From Candidatus Heimdallarchaeota archaeon (GTDB lineage: Archaea > Asgardarchaeota > Heimdallarchaeia > Heimdallarchaeales > JAJRWK01), in NCBI GenBank assembly GCA_027061945.1, contig JAMOVR010000213.1:1-33871 (forward strand): 33,871 nucleotides of DNA, read 5' to 3'. Shown one piece after another: positions 1,034 through 25,957 of the stretch. Position numbers and translations under genes: made by a program. Numbering within the stretch: the stretch's first letter is position 1; each line of letters opens with the position of its first letter. The notes below the pieces were generated by a model. The model made no database searches. It was not told the origin of the DNA and saw nothing but the letters and a program-made list of their open reading frames with translations.

Positions 1034-1483
1034 ATGTCCGATCCTGAAGATAAAAGTTTTTTCCCTCCAATGAGGAGGGGCAGAGGCAGAAGAAAAGGCT
1101 GGCGTCGTTGGGAAGAAACTCAGCCAGAAATAGGAAAAGAAGGATTTCCTAGAAGAAAAAGAATAGGTCGACCTAGAAGTAATCCATTGATTCATTTTCC
1201 ATGGGAAAATGTTTCTGGACATGTGACGCTTTTTCTTAATCCTCAAGAAGTAGAGGTTCTTCGATTTTTAGATGACGAAGAACTTACTCAGCAGCAAACA
1301 GCTGAAAAAATGGGTGTATCAAGAGCTACTGTGTGGAGACTTGCTCAATCGGCTCGTAAAAAGATAATTCAAGCATTATTATCTGGAGACGTTATTCATG
1401 TAGTGCTTACCCCCTACGAAAGTCAAAAAACAAATGAAGAAAAAAAAGACGAAAAAAGAGACAAAAAAGAATTAGATTATTAA
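1034..1483 (+). CDS. DUF134 (UPF0251) family HTH DNA-binding protein
   Basis: A 149-residue protein with a basic N-terminal third (RRGRGRRKGWRR) and a central helix-turn-helix. From about residue 66 it reads LNPQEVEVLRFLDDEELTQQ, then the recognition part AEKMGVSRATVWRLAQSARKK, which matches the DUF134/UPF0251 pattern of sigma-like HTH proteins in archaea and bacteria. Family members usually begin with cysteine-containing text that may bind a metal; here that part is replaced by the arginine-rich extension. The C-terminal 20 residues are a lysine/glutamate tail. It stands alone and diverges from the membrane operon at 214-678, which it might control; that link is inference. Confidence 0.85.
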   Translation: MSDPEDKSFFPPMRRGRGRRKGWRRWEETQPEIGKEGFPRRKRIGRPRSNPLIHFPWENVSGHVTLFLNPQEVEVLRFLDDEELTQQQTAEKMGVSRATVWRLAQSARKKIIQALLSGDVIHVVLTPYESQKTNEEKKDEKRDKKELDY

Positions 1484-3192: not shown

Positions 3193-4860
3193 TCATTTTT
3201 CAGAAGGGGCTACAGAATTGAAGACTTCAATTTCCTTATTTTTTGTTGTTTCGTTTTTGTTTATATCTGTGTTTTTTTCATTTTTAACAAGAGACTTAGA
3301 AATTACTGTTGACGAGTTGTTATTCTTTGAATGGAGTTTCATTTTATTCATTAAGTCTGTTATATCTAAGCCAAAATGTTTAGCGATGCCGAGAATTTCA
3401 AGCATATTTTTAGGTATTAAGCCTAATGGGGAACCATTACCATTACTATTTCCATTAGCAAGATTGAACCAAGATATTTCTCCAACTTTAATGCTTTTTG
3501 CTATTTCTGGTAATTGTTTAATCAATTCGTGTAACAGCATTGCTTCGTTGATTTGTTGTTGTGCTCTTACTTTTTCTCTTAAACCTTCGGCTTCTGCTAA
3601 CAATAATGCTTTACGGCCTTCAGCTTCAGCTAATAGTCTTTTCCTTGTTGCTTCTGCTAATTTGAGTTCTTTCATTGCTTCTGCTTCCGCTAATTGTAAT
3701 TTACTTTGTGCTTCTGCTTCTGCAATTCTCCTTATTCTTTCAGCTTCTGCTTCTGCTTCTAGTTTTTTTGCTTCTGCTATAGCTGCGGCCTGAAGTTTTT
3801 TCTTTTCGGCTTCCACTTCTACTTGTGTCTTAATAATTTCTATTTTCTTTGCTTCTGCTGTTTTTGTTCTTCTAAGTAAATCTGTTTGAACTTGAATTTC
3901 TGTTCTTTGTTTTTCATATTTTGCTTGTGTAACTTCTCTTTCTTTTTCTAATCGTGCAAATTCAATTTCTTTTTGTTTTTCGATTTCACCAACTTGCTTT
4001 TGTTTTTCCTGTTCTAACTTATCAACTTCTAATTCTTTGTTTTTCTGCGCTAATGCAACTGCTTTTTGCATTTCTACTACTTTCCGGTCTCTTTCGAGCT
4101 CTTTTGCTTTTGCTTTTTCATCGAGCTGCGCTTTGTAAATTCTTAGCTCTTGTTCTTTGTCTGCCTTTTTCTTTTCAACTTCGTACATTAATTCTATTCT
4201 TTTTTGTTCAATTTCCATCTCAGAATATATAGTAATTTCTTGAGCCTTCTTTTTAGCTTCTTGTTCGAACTTTGCTTGAAGATTTTGAAAAAGCTCAGAA
4301 TTTGTTAGTTCAACTTGCACTACTTCTACTGTTTCAATACTAATACCCCAGTCATTAACTACGGAGATTAATTCTTTCATGATAGCTTCCACGATTAATT
4401 GTCTTTCTCTTAAAACCTCGTCCATAGAAAGCTGAGCTACGGTTGTTCTAATGATTGATTCCACTATTTGTTCAAGAGTCTGATTCAATCTTTTCATTGC
4501 ATCTACGCCATATTGCGAGCCAATAGCACGATATGCGGCTTCAGGGTCAGTAATACGCCAGACCAATAAACCCTTTACAATTACAGGTTGGTTTTCTCGA
4601 GTAATTACCTTGTCTTGAGCATGGATCTCTACTTGTTGAATTGCAGTACTCAATACAACATATCTATCAAATACAGGAATTAAGAAAAATGAACCACCAT
4701 AACTCTTATTTTTTAGTTTACCTGCACGGAAATGAAGAACAAAGTTACTGGTATCAAATACTTTATATCTTGATTTTATAATTAGTCCCATTAATATTAC
4801 CAATAATGCGAAAGTGATGCCTAATACAGCCCATAATGAATAATTTTCCAATAATATCAA
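3193..4860 (-). CDS. flotillin-like SPFH/band 7 membrane scaffold protein
   Basis: About 555 residues: an N-terminal membrane anchor (about 8-28), an SPFH/band 7 domain (about 30-205, including TTAIQQVEIHAQDKVITREN and QLSMDEVLRERQLI), then a coiled coil of some 250 residues. The coil's second half is built of AEA-rich heptads (repeated LAEAEA). The tail has a short globular part (HELIKQLPEIAKSIKVGEIS) and a low-complexity asparagine/lysine end. Flotillins form membrane-bound oligomers that organise lipid domains. The open frame extends to 4893, but a TTG at 4860 follows GAGGT by 7 bases and is the better start. The NfeD-like gene upstream on the same strand is the usual partner. Alternating GCTTCTGC words in the DNA are simply Ala-Glu codon repeats. 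Confidence 0.85.
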   Translation of the reverse strand: MILLENYSLWAVLGITFALLVILMGLIIKSRYKVFDTSNFVLHFRAGKLKNKSYGGSFFLIPVFDRYVVLSTAIQQVEIHAQDKVITRENQPVIVKGLLVWRITDPEAAYRAIGSQYGVDAMKRLNQTLEQIVESIIRTTVAQLSMDEVLRERQLIVEAIMKELISVVNDWGISIETVEVVQVELTNSELFQNLQAKFEQEAKKKAQEITIYSEMEIEQKRIELMYEVEKKKADKEQELRIYKAQLDEKAKAKELERDRKVVEMQKAVALAQKNKELEVDKLEQEKQKQVGEIEKQKEIEFARLEKEREVTQAKYEKQRTEIQVQTDLLRRTKTAEAKKIEIIKTQVEVEAEKKKLQAAAIAEAKKLEAEAEAERIRRIAEAEAQSKLQLAEAEAMKELKLAEATRKRLLAEAEGRKALLLAEAEGLREKVRAQQQINEAMLLHELIKQLPEIAKSIKVGEISWFNLANGNSNGNGSPLGLIPKNMLEILGIAKHFGLDITDLMNKMKLHSKNNNSSTVISKSLVKNEKNTDINKNETTKNKEIEVFNSVAPSEK

Positions 4861-4867
4861 ATAGTAT

Positions 4868-4872
4868 ACCTC
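4868..4872 (-). promoter_or_regulatory. Shine-Dalgarno supporting a TTG start
   Basis: GAGGT on the minus strand, 7 bases before the TTG at 4860. The upstream ATG codons at 4893 and 4884 have no comparable site, so the flotillin-like protein probably starts with TTG. Confidence 0.6.
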
Positions 4873-4908
4873 AATATATATCATATAACACATAAAAATA
4901 AAGTAAAT

Positions 4909-4970: not shown

Positions 4971-5840
4971 CTAAAACTTAATTTTTTTTAGCTTACGTTT
5001 CTTATCTTTTTTAATTACTTCAGTATTTATATCTATAGATGCGGGACTAGAAGAAGTTATATTCTTAGTTATTTTAATTATTGATCCATTGCCATCCCAA
5101 ACAAGCGCATTGTCACCTTTATTAAAGTAATCATGAGGAAAAGCACCAATAGCAATAGCTTTCCTAGACGTACCGTCAGATTGCTTTACACTAACCAAAC
5201 CACTTTTTGTAGGGGTTACTTCAAAAAGTACAGTGGCAACGTTACCCCTTTTAATACCACTGACCGGATGCATATATCCCCTAGTGAGTTTTTGCATAGT
5301 TACGCTCATACCATACCCACTAACAAAACCAATTATTAACGAGAAAAGTACAGTCCCATCGGTAGGTGGATCTTTAAACCAAAGATATGTTCCACTTATT
5401 CCATATAGCATAAACCCTACACTTATAGAAAGCAATACTATCCTCCCGCCTTCAACTATTACGGTGTCAGGCGTGTTTATTGGTTCAATATAACCAGGGA
5501 AATCTTGTACATCGTGTGCAACTGAATATTCATGTTCAAAATCAGGTAATGTGTGTGAAACGTGAATGTCATGCTCATTAAAAATATAAACATCTTGATC
5601 AGCAACGTCATTCAAGTTAATACTGTTATTAGAGAAACCATTATTATGATTTATTAAACCATGATCATGATCTGATCCAATCACATCATGAGAATTAATA
5701 CTCTCTACTTCTGAAGTATTTGCTTCTATATTTGATGATAATGCTGAGTAAAAATAGAAGAATAATAAAATCCCTCCAAAAAAAAGCGCAAAAATTGCTG
5801 TACCTATCCAGATCTCGGCAGATATAAAATCCACTAACAT
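4971..5840 (-). CDS. NfeD-like membrane protein, partner of the flotillin-like protein
   Basis: About 289 residues: an N-terminal membrane helix (about 8-30), a long hydrophilic segment of about 90 residues rich in Asp, His and Asn (for example SDHDHGLINHNN), two membrane helices (about 130-185), then a beta-rich OB-like C-terminal domain (about 200-255) and a lysine-rich tail. NfeD proteins pair with flotillin/stomatin genes and carry a C-terminal OB fold, so order and neighbour support the call although similarity is loose. The His/Asp-rich segment is unusual and might bind metal. A GAGGTG about 9 bases before ATG 5840 favours this start over one at 5858. Probably transcribed before the flotillin-like gene. 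Confidence 0.65.
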   Translation of the reverse strand: MLVDFISAEIWIGTAIFALFFGGILLFFYFYSALSSNIEANTSEVESINSHDVIGSDHDHGLINHNNGFSNNSINLNDVADQDVYIFNEHDIHVSHTLPDFEHEYSVAHDVQDFPGYIEPINTPDTVIVEGGRIVLLSISVGFMLYGISGTYLWFKDPPTDGTVLFSLIIGFVSGYGMSVTMQKLTRGYMHPVSGIKRGNVATVLFEVTPTKSGLVSVKQSDGTSRKAIAIGAFPHDYFNKGDNALVWDGNGSIIKITKNITSSSPASIDINTEVIKKDKKRKLKKIKF

Positions 5841-5895
5841 AATTATATAACACCTCAACTTAGATTATATATAATAAATTATTAAGTGAATACTA

Positions 5896-7018: not shown

Positions 7019-7114
7019 AAGAATAAATCTTAGAATTAATATCTCAAACAAAATAATTGTTGACAATATAACTATTTAGTAAAGCCTAATTAGGAGTAGA
7101 AAATAGGTACAAAT

Positions 7115-7176
7115 GCCCCTGTGATCCTACTGGTACCAGCCTGAAAGATGATGACTGAGGTTTCAAGGTGAGGGGC
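7115..7176 (+). ncRNA. possible degenerate box C/D-like sRNA
   Basis: A 6-bp terminal stem (GCCCCT 7115-7120 with AGGGGC 7171-7176) encloses a C-like box GTGATCC (7121-7127), D' box CTGA (7141-7144), perfect C' box ATGATGA (7148-7154) and a D-like GTGA (7168-7171). The two spacers are both 13 bases, the symmetry expected of archaeal C/D RNAs. The terminal boxes deviate from consensus, and the first spacer contains the self-complementary CTGGTACCAG, which could fold back instead of guiding. Its inner portion resembles the clear C/D RNA at 7367-7423. Confidence 0.5.
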
Positions 7177-7366
7177 GCTAAATTTAATTCTCCTTGGAAC
7201 TTGAAAAATATAAATAAATACATCGTTATGGACTGCTTGTCAAAAACACCTCACTTATAAACTACCCAAAATCATTCTTTACATGAATGTGATTTCAGGG
7301 CAAGTATTCTTTAAGAAGCAGGAAGCAACTTATGAAAGCAAGGGATAGTTTACTATCCTTAAAACA
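7177..7366 (+). other. noncoding stretch with two hairpins
   Basis: No open frame. Two inverted repeats stand out: AAATCATTC (7269-7277) with GAATGTGATTT (7285-7295), a stem with a 2-base bulge; and AGGGATAG (7341-7348) with CTATCCTT (7353-7360), an 8-bp stem with a TTTA loop just before the box C/D sRNA. I searched by eye for RNase P and SRP RNA signatures and did not find them. The hairpins may belong to a longer RNA or mark processing sites. Confidence 0.4.
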
Positions 7367-7423
7367 ACCCAATGATGAACATGCACCAGTCTGAATAAAT
7401 GATGACGTTCACGGTCTGAGGGT
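7367..7423 (+). ncRNA. box C/D guide sRNA
   Basis: All four boxes are perfect: C ATGATGA (7372-7378), D' CTGA (7391-7394), C' ATGATGA (7399-7405), D CTGA (7416-7419). The D' guide is 12 bases (ACATGCACCAGT) and the D guide 10 bases (CGTTCACGGT), with a 4-base D'-C' spacer. ACCC (7367-7370) and GGGT (7420-7423) close a terminal stem. This is the textbook layout of an archaeal 2'-O-methylation guide bound by L7Ae, Nop5 and fibrillarin. From memory of archaeal 16S rRNA, the D' guide can pair with UGGUGCAUG and the D guide partly with ACCGUGA about 30 bases downstream; the targets are inference. Confidence 0.85.
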
Positions 7424-7584
7424 GAAACGCTACGGAATCATATGTGAGAAGTAATTAGTAAATCTTAGGTCAATAATTTGAGAAGAGTTATTTTCATTTT
7501 ATTATTTATTGAGAAAACAAAAGTTAATTAGAACTGACGCACTTTAAAACAAAATAGGAAGAAGGATTCGAAAGGTAGGCTCTA

Positions 7585-9336
7585 ATGCCAGGAGAATATA
7601 AGCGGTTTTTATGTATAGGTTTAGATGACTCTACTGTTAATGATGTATTCCCCAGCTTAAAAGGTGTTGTAGAAAAATATGATCTGGGAGTTGAAGCCTT
7701 AGATATACATGTAAGAACCAGAACTGGTGCTCACTTATTTACATTGGAATATATGACACTTCAAAGATTTGAAAAAATGAAAAACACTCTTGTATTCACT
7801 AAAAAAAACATATGGGATGGAGTACTTGTATGGATGACTCCCGATATGAGAGAATTTGCAGACTCTGTTAAACAAATTTTTGAATGGCACCAGTTGTATC
7901 ATGGGGATTATCCATTAATGATGGTCTGGTATGAAAACGATTTAGAGGCGTTTGGTATAGATTTTCCTTCTCAAGGATTAGTTTCTGTTTTTGGTCCTGT
8001 TAAAGGTTTAGGGAATTTTTTTTTAATAATCATGCCACCAGAAGCAAAACCCGACGATTTGTGGTATAGAATTGCTGAATTATCAACAGACATGCCAATG
8101 ATCGTAAAAGGGGCGCATGTAGAAAAAAGAGAAATGTCTTTTACTAGACGAATATTTGTTAGAGCCCAAGGATTATTGGCTTCTGTATACATGCCAAAGT
8201 TTGTAAGCAAAAGATTACCCCCACTTCCACCTCACCCAATAACGGTAGAAAAAATAATTGAGAGAATAAAAGAGCCTAAAAAAAAGAAAAAAAATGTTAA
8301 TAGCAAACAAAAACAATTAATCAAATACCCTCAATTAAGAAAACCAGTCGTTAGTAAAAGAAGACCAAGAATCCCTAAAAAAGAAAGAATCGAAAATTTC
8401 AACATTATTGCAGATCTGTTCTCTTCGCTTGGGAGAACTGTTTATCAAGCTCAATATGTCAAACAGAAATTTATTAATGACTTAGAGAAAAAAGAGATCC
8501 CTTTTGAAATAAGGGGAAACTATGTTTTTGTGAAAATTCCTTTTGAAGAATGGGCCATAAATATGGTAACTGGAGAAGGATATTTAGCGTCAAATGTTAG
8601 AAAGAGAATATGGCGACTCCCATGGCAAATAAGAAAGAATTTCAAAGCAACTCAAAGTGACAATGAAAAATTACCTTTTGATGAATTACCATCCCGTTCT
8701 CAAGTTTGGAAGTCAATTACTCCAATTAGGTTAGATTTTATAGCGTATAATTGTATTCCCTACTGGAGGAAAATAGTTCAGACTGTGAAGAAAGGGCTTT
8801 CAATAATAAAAGAGTCAAGAATTATTGTAAACCCAGAAATAACAGATTTTGAAGAATTAGTTGGAATTAAAGACCAGGAATGTTATGCAAAATTTCCTGA
8901 GATGAAGTTTTTTGTAAAGATGTACTACTCAGAAATAATTAATGATGCTGCAAAGGGAGAATTAGAAAGCAGTATTCATGCTAAAGTATGGGAGCATGTC
9001 GCAAAAGACTATGTGAACATGATTTTGAATGAATTTAATTTAAAACATTCTTTTAAGGGAAGAAGAGTCATAATAAAAGGAAAATACCACGAATACGAAA
9101 TCGACGTTATTTCTGGTTCCGCCTATATTAAAGGAGCTAAAGAGCCTTTGTGTATTGTTCCACATTCTTCAATGGATAGGCAAGCCATATTAAAAGATCC
9201 ACTGATTGAAAAGCTAACAGGACTTCCGGTTCTTATTTTAACGGACAAACCAGCAATGGTACTGCCAACAATCTTTACACTCATTAATGATGATGAAATT
9301 ACAGATCAAGTTTTATTATCTCAAATAATTTGGTAA
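7585..9336 (+). CDS. large protein with an N-terminal small-GTPase-like domain lacking nucleotide-binding motifs
   Basis: A 583-residue soluble protein. Residues 5-180 read like an Arf/Ras-type fold: strand one KRFLCIGLDDSTVND occupies the place of a P-loop but has no GxxxxGK[ST]; FTLEYMTLQ stands where a DxxGQ switch would be; WDGVLVWMTPDMREFADSV matches the strand-four/helix-three pattern of Arf proteins; and MVWYENDLE stands in place of the NKxD motif. A basic linker (about 225-270) follows, then an unrecognised region of some 310 residues with two similar beta elements (near 320-345 and 495-515). The fold call is my reading of the pattern, not a search result. It may be a scaffold or regulatory pseudo-GTPase. 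Nothing nearby defines its role. Confidence 0.6.
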   Translation: MPGEYKRFLCIGLDDSTVNDVFPSLKGVVEKYDLGVEALDIHVRTRTGAHLFTLEYMTLQRFEKMKNTLVFTKKNIWDGVLVWMTPDMREFADSVKQIFEWHQLYHGDYPLMMVWYENDLEAFGIDFPSQGLVSVFGPVKGLGNFFLIIMPPEAKPDDLWYRIAELSTDMPMIVKGAHVEKREMSFTRRIFVRAQGLLASVYMPKFVSKRLPPLPPHPITVEKIIERIKEPKKKKKNVNSKQKQLIKYPQLRKPVVSKRRPRIPKKERIENFNIIADLFSSLGRTVYQAQYVKQKFINDLEKKEIPFEIRGNYVFVKIPFEEWAINMVTGEGYLASNVRKRIWRLPWQIRKNFKATQSDNEKLPFDELPSRSQVWKSITPIRLDFIAYNCIPYWRKIVQTVKKGLSIIKESRIIVNPEITDFEELVGIKDQECYAKFPEMKFFVKMYYSEIINDAAKGELESSIHAKVWEHVAKDYVNMILNEFNLKHSFKGRRVIIKGKYHEYEIDVISGSAYIKGAKEPLCIVPHSSMDRQAILKDPLIEKLTGLPVLILTDKPAMVLPTIFTLINDDEITDQVLLSQIIW

Positions 9337-16501: not shown

Positions 16502-17290
16502 TTAGAGATAGAAATCTCCAGTGTATAAGTCTACCATGAAAGCGTCTCCAGGGGTGTCTGCCTCAAAGTGTTCAATAGCATATTGTGTGACATCTTCCAT
16601 GATGTACATGGGTTTATAGAGAGCTTCCATTGCATAGTAGGTAAAGATACCATTTTGCATTGTGTCGTCTCCGTCATAGGTGTAAGTTGTCTCTTGGGAA
16701 CCAATTGCTAATAACCATCCAGGACGGGCAAGATCTCTAAAGGTTCCCTGATTGCATGCGTCATCAAAGAAGTAAACGTGTTGGGTTTCAATCTTATCGG
16801 TGATTGCTTTTACCTCGTCAGAGGTCACACCAGTTAATTCCCATGAGATAATCATTGAAATTTTGTCTCTTCTGGAGTAATATCCGTGTCCGGAGTAAGT
16901 AATTACTACTCCGTCTCCGGGTTTCTCAACGTCTACTAACCATTGAAGTGCGTCTAAAATATTTTGTTTGGTTGCATTGTCGTTTAATAATAATTTAACA
17001 GTGTATCCATGGTCTGTTAAGTATTTATACCAGTCCATTGCAGCATATTTTAGGTCGCTTGAGTCTCCAGAATAGTCGCTTATACCTATTACCACGGCGT
17101 ACCTGTTTCCAGTAATGTTTTCTCCGCCAGAGGTAAGGTCAGTAGTACCGTCGTCTCCGCCTACAGGTGGTCCTGCGCGGGAAACGCTGACTGCCCTCGC
17201 GTTGTTGTTATCCACTGCTAATGAAGGAGCAGTGAATGCTAACGGAATTAACAAGATTGCGATGAATAGTAGTGCTGTTTTTTTCATCAT
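16502..17290 (-). CDS. secreted caspase-fold (peptidase C14-type) protease
   Basis: A 262-residue protein with an N-terminal signal peptide (KKTALLFIAILLIPLAFTAPSLA), so it is probably exported. The caspase p20-like domain starts near residue 62 (NRYAVVIGISDYSG) and carries the catalytic pair: H135 in TYSGHG and C179 in DACNQG. Residues 195-262 are the shorter p10-like end (IGSQETTYTY, NGIFTYYAMEAL). Compared with cytosolic metacaspases, secretion and the small size are notable. GAGGTG lies 2-5 bases before tandem ATG codons (17290, 17287). Its codons are more GC-rich than those of its neighbours, consistent with high expression or transfer. Substrate unknown. Confidence 0.85.
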   Translation of the reverse strand: MMKKTALLFIAILLIPLAFTAPSLAVDNNNARAVSVSRAGPPVGGDDGTTDLTSGGENITGNRYAVVIGISDYSGDSSDLKYAAMDWYKYLTDHGYTVKLLLNDNATKQNILDALQWLVDVEKPGDGVVITYSGHGYYSRRDKISMIISWELTGVTSDEVKAITDKIETQHVYFFDDACNQGTFRDLARPGWLLAIGSQETTYTYDGDDTMQNGIFTYYAMEALYKPMYIMEDVTQYAIEHFEADTPGDAFMVDLYTGDFYL

Positions 17291-24199: not shown

Positions 24200-25906
24200 T
24201 TATCTTTGTTTTTTAATGACTTTAGCTACGGGGACTACAAGTAAAGCTAAGAAAGATGCAAGCCATGTCATTCCAGGTAGGGCCCCTGTGGTTGTCTCTG
24301 ATTCGCTTGATTCAGATGTTTCACTTGACGTACTAGTTGTTGTGCTGGTAGTTGATTCTGTTGATGCACTTAAAGAGATGGTTGGGTCGTAGAACATTGA
24401 TTGATTGAAGTATGGGAATTCATAACTAATGAACGTTCTAGTACCAGAGGCAATGTATGAAGTGGATATGTTTGTAGCTTGTTCATCTAAGATTGCGATA
24501 TCTTCATTGTTTATTAGCATGCTCAATCCTTCATCAGATTCAGCAGTAAACTTCCCTGTCTTAGAGTCATATTCCATCCTAGCCTTAACGTTGCTAATGA
24601 TTTCTACTTCTAATTGTAATGTGTTGTTGGTAGATTCAAATGGCCATGCGCCCATTTCAACGCTGTATTTGAAAGTTCCAGTAGTAACATCAATAGATTT
24701 GTTTGCATATTCAATGGTTGCGTTCCCTAAAAAGAAGTAGACATTAATCTTCATGGGTATCTGATATTCAACAGCAGGATTACCGACGAACAAGTCAATT
24801 GTGGTTGTAAAGTTGACATTGTAGACTGTTGAATTATCTATTGTTAGTTCTAATACTTCAGTATGATTCCATTGAGCAGTTTCTAATCTCCAGAATTTAA
24901 CTATATCCCCATCCTGAGTCGTTTCGTTTAGTGATGAAAACATTATTTTGTAATAAGTCGTGAAGTTTGTGCTCCCGTCATCAAAGTAGAACTTAACGTG
25001 GGGAGTTCCTCCTTCAAATACGATCCTTGTGTTTCCTCCTTTCATTTCTATGTCTTGGGTGGTTGTACCATCAGCATCCTGCTCAGTTCCTAAATCTACA
25101 ACGGGATCATAGTATAATGAAGCGTTGTATGCGGGGAATTCATATGTTAAGAAAGTAATACCACCATATTGTTTCAAGTCAGACATGATTTCTACGTTTA
25201 CACTATCTTCAACAGCAATTTCAGGATTAGAGATCTCCATGCGAATACCATCAGTTGTGTTTCCAGTTACTTCTCCAGTATCCTGATTTCTGTAGAATGC
25301 TGCGTCAGTATTGCTAATCAGTTTTACGCCAAAGACTAATGAATTGTCTGTGCTTTCAAATGGCCATGCACCAATACTTACAGAGTATTTGAAACTACCA
25401 GCAGGTACTTCAACTGTAGTGTTCCCTACAGGTAATATTTGTGTTGTTTCATACATGTATACTTCAATTTCCATTGGTACTTCAACAACGCCATTACTCG
25501 TAAGGATGTTCATTGTAGTAGTAAAGTTGACGTTTAAACCTGAATTCCCGTTCGCATCAGCAATATTTACTATATCCGTGTGGTTCCATGTTGCTTGATC
25601 CAGTTTGTAATATTTTACTACCGTACTATTAACGTCTGTTTCATTCAGCCATGAGAACATTAATTTGTAATATGTTGCCATTACAGAATCATTGTTTTTA
25701 TAATAAAATGCAACATGGGGTGTCGTGCCATCAAATTTTACTTGTAAGTGATCTGATTCTATGTACATGTTTCCAGACTGATCATATCCAGCTGAAAGCA
25801 TACCTTCATTGATTGCTACTGGTGATGTTAATGCATTTGTATAAATAACAGAGGCACCGATTAAGAATACTGCCAGTAACAATCCTGTGATTGCCGCCTT
25901 TTTCAT
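24200..25906 (-). CDS. surface protein with tandem duplicated domain and C-terminal anchor
   Basis: About 568 residues: signal peptide (MKKAAITGLLLAVFLIGASV), two homologous domains about 240 residues apart (roughly 55-270 and 295-510), a Ser/Thr/Glu linker (about 515-540) and a C-terminal membrane helix with basic end (GMTWLASFLALLVVPVAKVIKK). Shared marks of both copies include TPHVxFY, TYYK then MFSxLNET, WNHT, NFTTT, and FKYSV-GAWPFEST. Many NxS/T sites suggest glycosylation. The architecture suits an S-layer or other abundant surface protein. Codons are richer in GC than the surroundings, consistent with high expression. ATG 25906 follows GAGGTG by 6 bases; a GTG at 25915 overlaps that site and is rejected. 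I do not recognise the family. Confidence 0.8.
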   Translation of the reverse strand: MKKAAITGLLLAVFLIGASVIYTNALTSPVAINEGMLSAGYDQSGNMYIESDHLQVKFDGTTPHVAFYYKNNDSVMATYYKLMFSWLNETDVNSTVVKYYKLDQATWNHTDIVNIADANGNSGLNVNFTTTMNILTSNGVVEVPMEIEVYMYETTQILPVGNTTVEVPAGSFKYSVSIGAWPFESTDNSLVFGVKLISNTDAAFYRNQDTGEVTGNTTDGIRMEISNPEIAVEDSVNVEIMSDLKQYGGITFLTYEFPAYNASLYYDPVVDLGTEQDADGTTTQDIEMKGGNTRIVFEGGTPHVKFYFDDGSTNFTTYYKIMFSSLNETTQDGDIVKFWRLETAQWNHTEVLELTIDNSTVYNVNFTTTIDLFVGNPAVEYQIPMKINVYFFLGNATIEYANKSIDVTTGTFKYSVEMGAWPFESTNNTLQLEVEIISNVKARMEYDSKTGKFTAESDEGLSMLINNEDIAILDEQATNISTSYIASGTRTFISYEFPYFNQSMFYDPTISLSASTESTTSTTTSTSSETSESSESETTTGALPGMTWLASFLALLVVPVAKVIKKQR

Positions 25907-25907
25907 G

Positions 25908-25957
25908 TTATTCACCTCGAGATTTATTCTCGATTATAACTTGGAGGTGGTGAATAA
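25908..25957 (-). promoter_or_regulatory. leader hairpin that buries the ribosome binding site
   Basis: On the minus strand TTATTCACC (25957-25949) can pair perfectly with GGTGAATAA (25916-25908), the second arm containing the surface-protein Shine-Dalgarno. Inside, TCGAGA (25933-25928 region) and TCTCGA (25922-25917) form a further 6-bp stem with a 5-base loop. The site 2 bases before ATG 25906 would be closed when the structure forms, suggesting translational control. Confidence 0.6.

Follow-up and report, generated by a model that had tools for sequence, protein, structure and literature searches.

A predicted small-GTPase domain without its nucleotide-binding motifs, joined to DUF7737 in a genus of Heimdallarchaeota

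Here we describe an intact and conserved gene of Candidatus Heimdallarchaeota archaeon whose 583-residue product, P0001, carries an N-terminal domain that matches small GTPases in predicted fold and has lost all of their nucleotide-binding motifs, followed by a C-terminal part that ends in the Pfam domain DUF7737; the same architecture occurs in two further families with Ras-type N-terminal domains. We infer that P0001 does not bind nucleotide, that it would contact a partner through helices alpha3 and alpha5, and that it may serve as a scaffold. Dead small GTPases put to new use as structural elements are known mainly from eukaryotes, and Asgard archaea encode many eukaryote-like small GTPases, the roles of which are mostly obscure.

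The gene and its surroundings

The gene lies in a stretch of 33,871 nucleotides, the whole of which is called the window below.

7585 to 9336, plus strand: whole gene of P0001, an open frame of 583 amino acids with orthologues in two sister species and a signature of purifying selection.

The 583 codons run without interruption, and the opposite strand is rich in stops. Among 57 related genomes, orthologues were found only in two genomes of the same genus, representing two species; they are 586 and at least 535 amino acids long (the latter is cut by a contig end), and P0001 is 44% and 42% identical to them. The first-pass annotation, which had proposed a 583-residue protein in an Asgard-type archaeon, thus holds on both counts, with an intact frame conserved in two sister species and an orthologue in Candidatus Heimdallarchaeota archaeon. 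In the window the gene is convergent with purH; the orthologue in one sister genome (G002, L003) likewise adjoins a convergent purH, and in the other (G001) the C-terminal end of the orthologue adjoins purH on a second contig (L005). Comparison of the orthologues from the two sister species gives a dN of 0.02-0.07 and a saturated dS (at least 2), and therefore the P0001 family is under strong purifying selection. Relatives of P0001 were not found in viral contigs, a plasmid search with its C-terminus gave no match, and no defence-system model was matched by PADLOC.

Several other features of the window deserve mention in their own right. The 566 bases upstream of the gene (7019-7584) hold no open frame of 80 amino acids or more and no Rfam match. 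A caspase-domain protein with an apparent N-terminal signal peptide (16502-17290, minus strand; Peptidase_C14, 8.6e-15) is encoded in this Asgard archaeon, as is an SPFH/Band 7 (flotillin-like) protein with a long, charged, coiled-coil-like region (3193-4893, minus strand), which adjoins the gene for a predicted membrane protein with no Pfam match (4971-5858). An HTH protein of the DUF134 or sigma-70 region 4 type is encoded at 1034-1483 (plus strand) of this archaeal genome. The product of 24200-25915 (minus strand), 571 amino acids with no Pfam match, is predicted to be secreted and membrane-anchored, with two apparent repeats of about 220 residues, then a stretch rich in Ser/Thr and, at the C-terminus, a hydrophobic segment.

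Loss of the nucleotide-binding motifs

Three segments of the N-terminal domain occupy the places of the classical GTPase motifs.

7618 to 7644, plus strand: lost P-loop (G1), GLDDSTVND, residues 12-20 (sequence, alignment and motif scan).
7744 to 7764, plus strand: lost DxxG (G3), LEYMTLQ, residues 54-60 (alignment and motif scan).
7927 to 7947, plus strand: lost NKxD (G4), WYENDLE, residues 115-121 (alignment and motif scan).

These are the replacements that had been read from the letters of the sequence at the outset, and they stand at the positions given for them. In G1 the first glycine is retained as G12, and by position the second glycine has become T17, the lysine V18 and the Ser/Thr N19; in the orthologues these three positions hold V, M and E, so that the phosphate-binding lysine and the Ser/Thr are lost and no conserved substitute has taken their place. 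The place of DxxG is occupied by E55-Y-x-T58, in which E55, Y56 and T58 are invariant across the three orthologues. The G4 place reads x-E117-x-D119-L, with D119 as the sole surviving residue of NKxD, and E117, D119 and L120 are invariant in the three orthologues. A motif scan of P0001 and five relatives found neither [AG]xxxxGK[ST] nor [NT]KxD anywhere in the chain, and hence no homologue with an intact P-loop elsewhere; DxxG is absent from P0001 and occurs in the five relatives solely outside the G3 position. By the same scan P0001 has none of the three motifs that characterise active members of the Ras superfamily (GxxxxGK[ST], DxxG and NKxD).

Pseudo-GTPases of class (i), which bind no nucleotide, include the pG1 and pG2 domains of p190RhoGAP, CENP-M and the fungal dynein light intermediate chain (PMC5593906). 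Because the P-loop residues are lost and not conserved, the N-terminal domain of P0001 is, judging by its sequence, most likely of this class, and would then be devoid of guanine nucleotide and fixed in conformation. A domain of class (ii), with non-canonical binding, for example through D119-L and an altered phosphate site, might instead act as a sensor of GTP or another ligand. The invariance of E117 and of D119-L120 in G4 would fit such a sensor, and atypical binding of nucleotide or cation is not excludable for all pseudo-GTPases (PMC5593906). We nevertheless consider this improbable, as the P-loop lysine and Ser/Thr have given way to variable residues (V/M and N/E), the segment comprising the P-loop and alpha1 is 25% identical against 44% overall, and the motifs are lost in both sister families as well.

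Fold of the N-terminal domain

7597 to 8094, plus strand: predicted pseudo-GTPase domain, residues 5-170, in the order b1-a1-b2-b3-a2-b4-a3-b5-(a4 region)-b6-a5 (AlphaFold2 models and Foldseek against the PDB).

Sequence profiles alone fail to tie residues 1-170 to small GTPases. The Pfam GTPase models PF00071, PF00025 and PF08477 match neither P0001 nor its orthologues, and phmmer finds no match to P0001 among PDB sequences. HHalign comparisons of the N-terminal profile with Rab-like, Arf-like and pseudo-GTPase profiles of the same genome stay at noise; against 14 GTPases of this genome the probability is 2%, with 2 of 100 shuffles scoring equally in local and 10 of 100 in global mode. Matches of the N-terminal part to Herpes_U5 and ABC_tran_Xtn in Pfam/NCBIfam were set aside as sub-threshold noise.

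The assignment comes from structure prediction. Template-free AlphaFold2 models were built from three aligned sequences, of which two are 93% identical. The model of residues 1-176, of moderate confidence (pLDDT 66, pTM 0.67), has the order b1-a1-b2-b3-a2-b4-a3-b5-b6-a5, and the same order from b1 to a5 is seen in the full-length model (pLDDT 58.7, pTM 0.47). The Arf/Ras succession of strands and helices suggested earlier is thus reproduced, except that helix alpha4 is short or absent, with a conserved stretch (117-144) in its place. Directly after alpha1 the model has b2 and b3 as consecutive strands forming a hairpin, an arrangement characteristic of Ras-like G domains and, to our knowledge, no feature of CheY-like folds.

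A Foldseek search of the PDB with the model of residues 1-176 gave 112 matches at E<=1e-3, and the best 50 of these 112 are all small GTPases; the best E is 2.3e-5, the target TM among the matches listed is mostly 0.5-0.64, and the rmsd is large, about 5.5-7 A in most matches. With the full-length model all 14 matches at E<=1e-3 are small GTPases. Among the matches listed the leaders are Cdc42, Rab21, Sec4, H-Ras, Rac and Ran, so that the closest folds are of the Rho, Rab and Ras type and the likeness to Arf in the first-pass annotation is not upheld; the Arf-like profile of the same genome also remains at noise, and we disfavour an Arf affinity. Neither Arf nor SRbeta nor Rag (Gtr) came out as the best-matching subfamily among the Foldseek matches listed and the Arf-like profile of this genome. 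The idea of a dead small-GTPase domain itself is supported by this match in fold together with the motif loss, and no unrelated fold appears among the 50 matches listed for residues 1-176.

One may ask whether a different three-layer alpha/beta domain could merely resemble a small GTPase, the link to Ras domains in the sister families being coincidental domain shuffling. The missing sequence-level similarity to GTPases and the moderate confidence of the models would allow for this, but we give it a low probability, since the matches listed for both models are all small GTPases, the b2-b3 hairpin after alpha1 departs from CheY-like folds, and in two sister families the same C-terminal 165 residues follow bona fide Ras-family N-termini. 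With the sister families taken into account, the models make a small-GTPase fold of the P0001 N-terminal domain very probable.

Conservation pattern and a candidate binding face

7846 to 7902, plus strand: helix alpha3, residues 88-106, strongly conserved; with alpha5 a candidate partner-binding face (identity per element, DSSP of the model).
7933 to 8094, plus strand: conserved block, residues 117-170, comprising the former G4/alpha4 region, beta6 and alpha5 (identity per element, alignment).

Constraint in an active GTPase is strongest in the nucleotide pocket. The conservation of P0001 is the reverse of this pattern: between P0001 and its orthologue P0002 the identity is 25% in the P-loop and alpha1, 20% in beta2 and 15% in DxxG and alpha2, against 44% overall, and it rises to 65% in alpha3 (over 85-107), 71% in residues 117-144, 57% in beta6 and 89% in alpha5. 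With alpha3, 117-144 and alpha5 conserved and the pocket diverged, the simplest reading is that selection acts on a candidate binding face made up of alpha3, the former alpha4 and alpha5.

The loss of every catalytic motif might also be expected of a pseudogene decaying from a GTPase fusion. We regard this as extremely improbable and have rejected it on the pattern of dN and dS reported above; the open frames in the related species are intact, and alpha5 is 89% identical between species that differ at more than half of their positions overall.

Linker, middle region and DUF7737

8095 to 8370, plus strand: basic linker, residues 171-262, predicted to be disordered and containing a conserved PPLPPxPIT motif (pLDDT about 20-33 over most of the stretch, alignment).
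8458 to 8604, plus strand: helix and beta-meander unit, residues about 292-340, a middle copy resembling the first half of DUF7737 (hhalign).
8833 to 9327, plus strand: region of residues about 417-581, also present in two further families of pseudo-GTPases from this genus (blastp of P0004 against P0001, 2.5e-17).
9004 to 9327, plus strand: DUF7737 (PF24879), residues 474-581 (hmmscan, E=3.1e-11, 43.6 bits against a cut-off of 27).

In the alignment the long linker shows basic patches of the RRxxxPKK type. The middle unit scores 30.3 against the C-terminal profile in hhalign, where the best of 200 column shuffles reaches 21.3 and the best other protein of the window 17.8. The domain partnered with the GTPase-like part had been called unknown; its function is indeed uncharacterised, but its C-terminal part holds a named Pfam domain. 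The DUF7737 of the Heimdall proteins is related to that of bacteria (hhalign, probability 95%), and the LCIVP and DxxLLxQI ends are conserved between P0001 and a bacterial member.

In the bacterial protein (Novosphingobium, L051) DUF7737 is likewise C-terminal, at 741-843, and is preceded by DUF4132 at 447-622. DUF4132 is a domain of YehI of E. coli, and yehI lies near the gene for a MoxR-type ATPase. These bacterial relatives of YehI share the C-terminal DUF7737 with P0001 and differ from it in having DUF4132 ahead of that domain, where P0001 has the pseudo-GTPase instead; no DUF4132 is detectable in P0001 ahead of DUF7737, and we do not place it among the DUF4132 (MolR/YehI) proteins. A DUF4132 remnant in the middle region was considered and dismissed, as there is no Pfam match and the hhalign score of 13.8 is noise. 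Across 228 genomes of the phylum, DUF7737 above the cut-off is restricted to this genus; weak matches in two other genomes (G048 and G050) were discarded as frames containing stops at unrelated loci.

Sister families with the same architecture

Two further DUF7737 families occur in the genus. One is represented by P0004 (560 amino acids; the same genome, contig C43, L058 646-2328), the other by P0005 and P0006 (379 amino acids each), which come from the two sister species. PF00071 matches the N-termini of these proteins (3.9e-12 for P0004, 4.3e-16 and 2e-16 for P0005 and P0006), which also show sequence matches to Rab structures in the PDB, and the nearest intact relatives in the window's genome are ordinary Rab-like GTPases (L024, 1.9e-27; L021, 2.6e-18). 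G1, G3 and G4 are lost in all three proteins, the segments in their places being GNVSLTLKND, WQVADG and VGVSPSL in P0004 and GSNIRSSNS, WNISSN and AETNNGP in P0005. About 165 C-terminal residues are common to the DUF7737 families. Pfam gives no match to the middle region of P0004, roughly residues 215-385; a comparison of residues 215-440 of this protein with the C-terminal profile was discarded because the two overlap.

Related genomes also encode fused or extended GTPases that have no DUF7737; the five considered all keep an intact P-loop (5 of 5), and hence, in the cases examined, the loss of the motifs accompanies DUF7737. That two sister families share the design of a dead switch with DUF7737 therefore points to a conserved non-enzymatic part and not to a decayed gene. 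The DUF7737 tree is short and its outgroup branch long, and fusion and motif loss may have happened once or more than once.

A separate observation concerns a 334-residue protein of the same genome (L036 805-1809, contig C286) with a C-terminal small-GTPase-like domain, the P-loop VGERSVGRST (Lys to Arg), no clear switch II and no DUF7737; it is possibly an atypical GTPase.

Proposed role

We propose, as a reading somewhat better than even, that P0001 is an adaptor in two parts. The first 170 residues would have a fold of the Ras/Rho/Rab kind that, with the motif residues lost, would be free of nucleotide and held in one fixed conformation. This head may act as a protein-binding module, making contact through the face of alpha3, the former alpha4 and alpha5, away from the old phosphate pocket. 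The basic, flexible linker would tether the head to the C-terminal unit, and this unit, ending in DUF7737, could provide a second contact.

The main rival to the adaptor is regulation within the same chain, in which the pseudo-GTPase would be an intramolecular lid controlling the DUF7737 part, and the activity of the latter would be the real function, as perhaps in the bacterial DUF4132-DUF7737 proteins. In its favour, DUF7737 is the one component common to the three families and the bacterial protein, the linker has considerable length and a basic character, with its RRxxxPKK-type patches, and p190RhoGAP is reduced in its own activity when its pseudo-GTPase domains are deleted (PMC5593906). 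However, a fixed packing of head on tail is unsupported by the full-length model, with its low pTM and disordered linker, and we think the lid rather unlikely, although less so than the other alternatives.

Relation to known systems and significance

The pG1 and pG2 domains of p190RhoGAP resemble P0001 in placing a small-GTPase fold with degraded G motifs within a larger multidomain protein (PMC5593906). p190RhoGAP is metazoan and has FF and RhoGAP domains, whereas P0001 is archaeal, with the domain as its N-terminal head and DUF7737 as partner, and its membership of class (i) is by inference. CENP-M and the fungal dynein light intermediate chain are like P0001, as proposed here, in having a GTPase fold without nucleotide binding (PMC5593906); the former is a centromere protein and the latter a dynein subunit, and P0001 is likened to them in fold and its use, not in sequence. 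For the same host group, the small GTPases of Asgard archaea have been surveyed by structure; roadblock, longin and unknown domains are among the fusion partners reported there, and the term pseudo is absent from the paper (PMC10933270). The Rab-like, Rag-like and MglA-like proteins of that survey are treated as GTPases (PMC10933270). P0004 and P0005 clearly descend from GTPases of this kind. In P0001, by contrast, all motifs are lost and the partner is DUF7737 instead of roadblock or longin. In a body of literature that takes in few of the subscription journals and no bioRxiv preprints, no paper combined 'pseudoGTPase' with 'Asgard' or 'pseudo-GTPase' with 'archaea', and none mentioned DUF7737.

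These proteins may represent lineage-specific multidomain pseudo-GTPases of Asgard archaea: a Rab-like GTPase would have been fused to DUF7737 and dropped nucleotide binding, and three descendant families would have diversified as scaffolds of fixed conformation. We put this history forward tentatively, at a little under an even chance. Its significance is tempered by the confinement of DUF7737 pseudo-GTPases to one genus among the 228 genomes of the phylum. For the uncharacterised DUF7737 the finding provides a GTPase-like context, and P0001 is a small, testable protein with which to look for partners. A conserved set of proteins that retain the fold and a binding face but not nucleotide binding would show the use of this fold for structural interaction outside eukaryotes, and, if the proposal is true, dead small GTPases have been reused as structural parts in the archaeal relatives of eukaryotes too.
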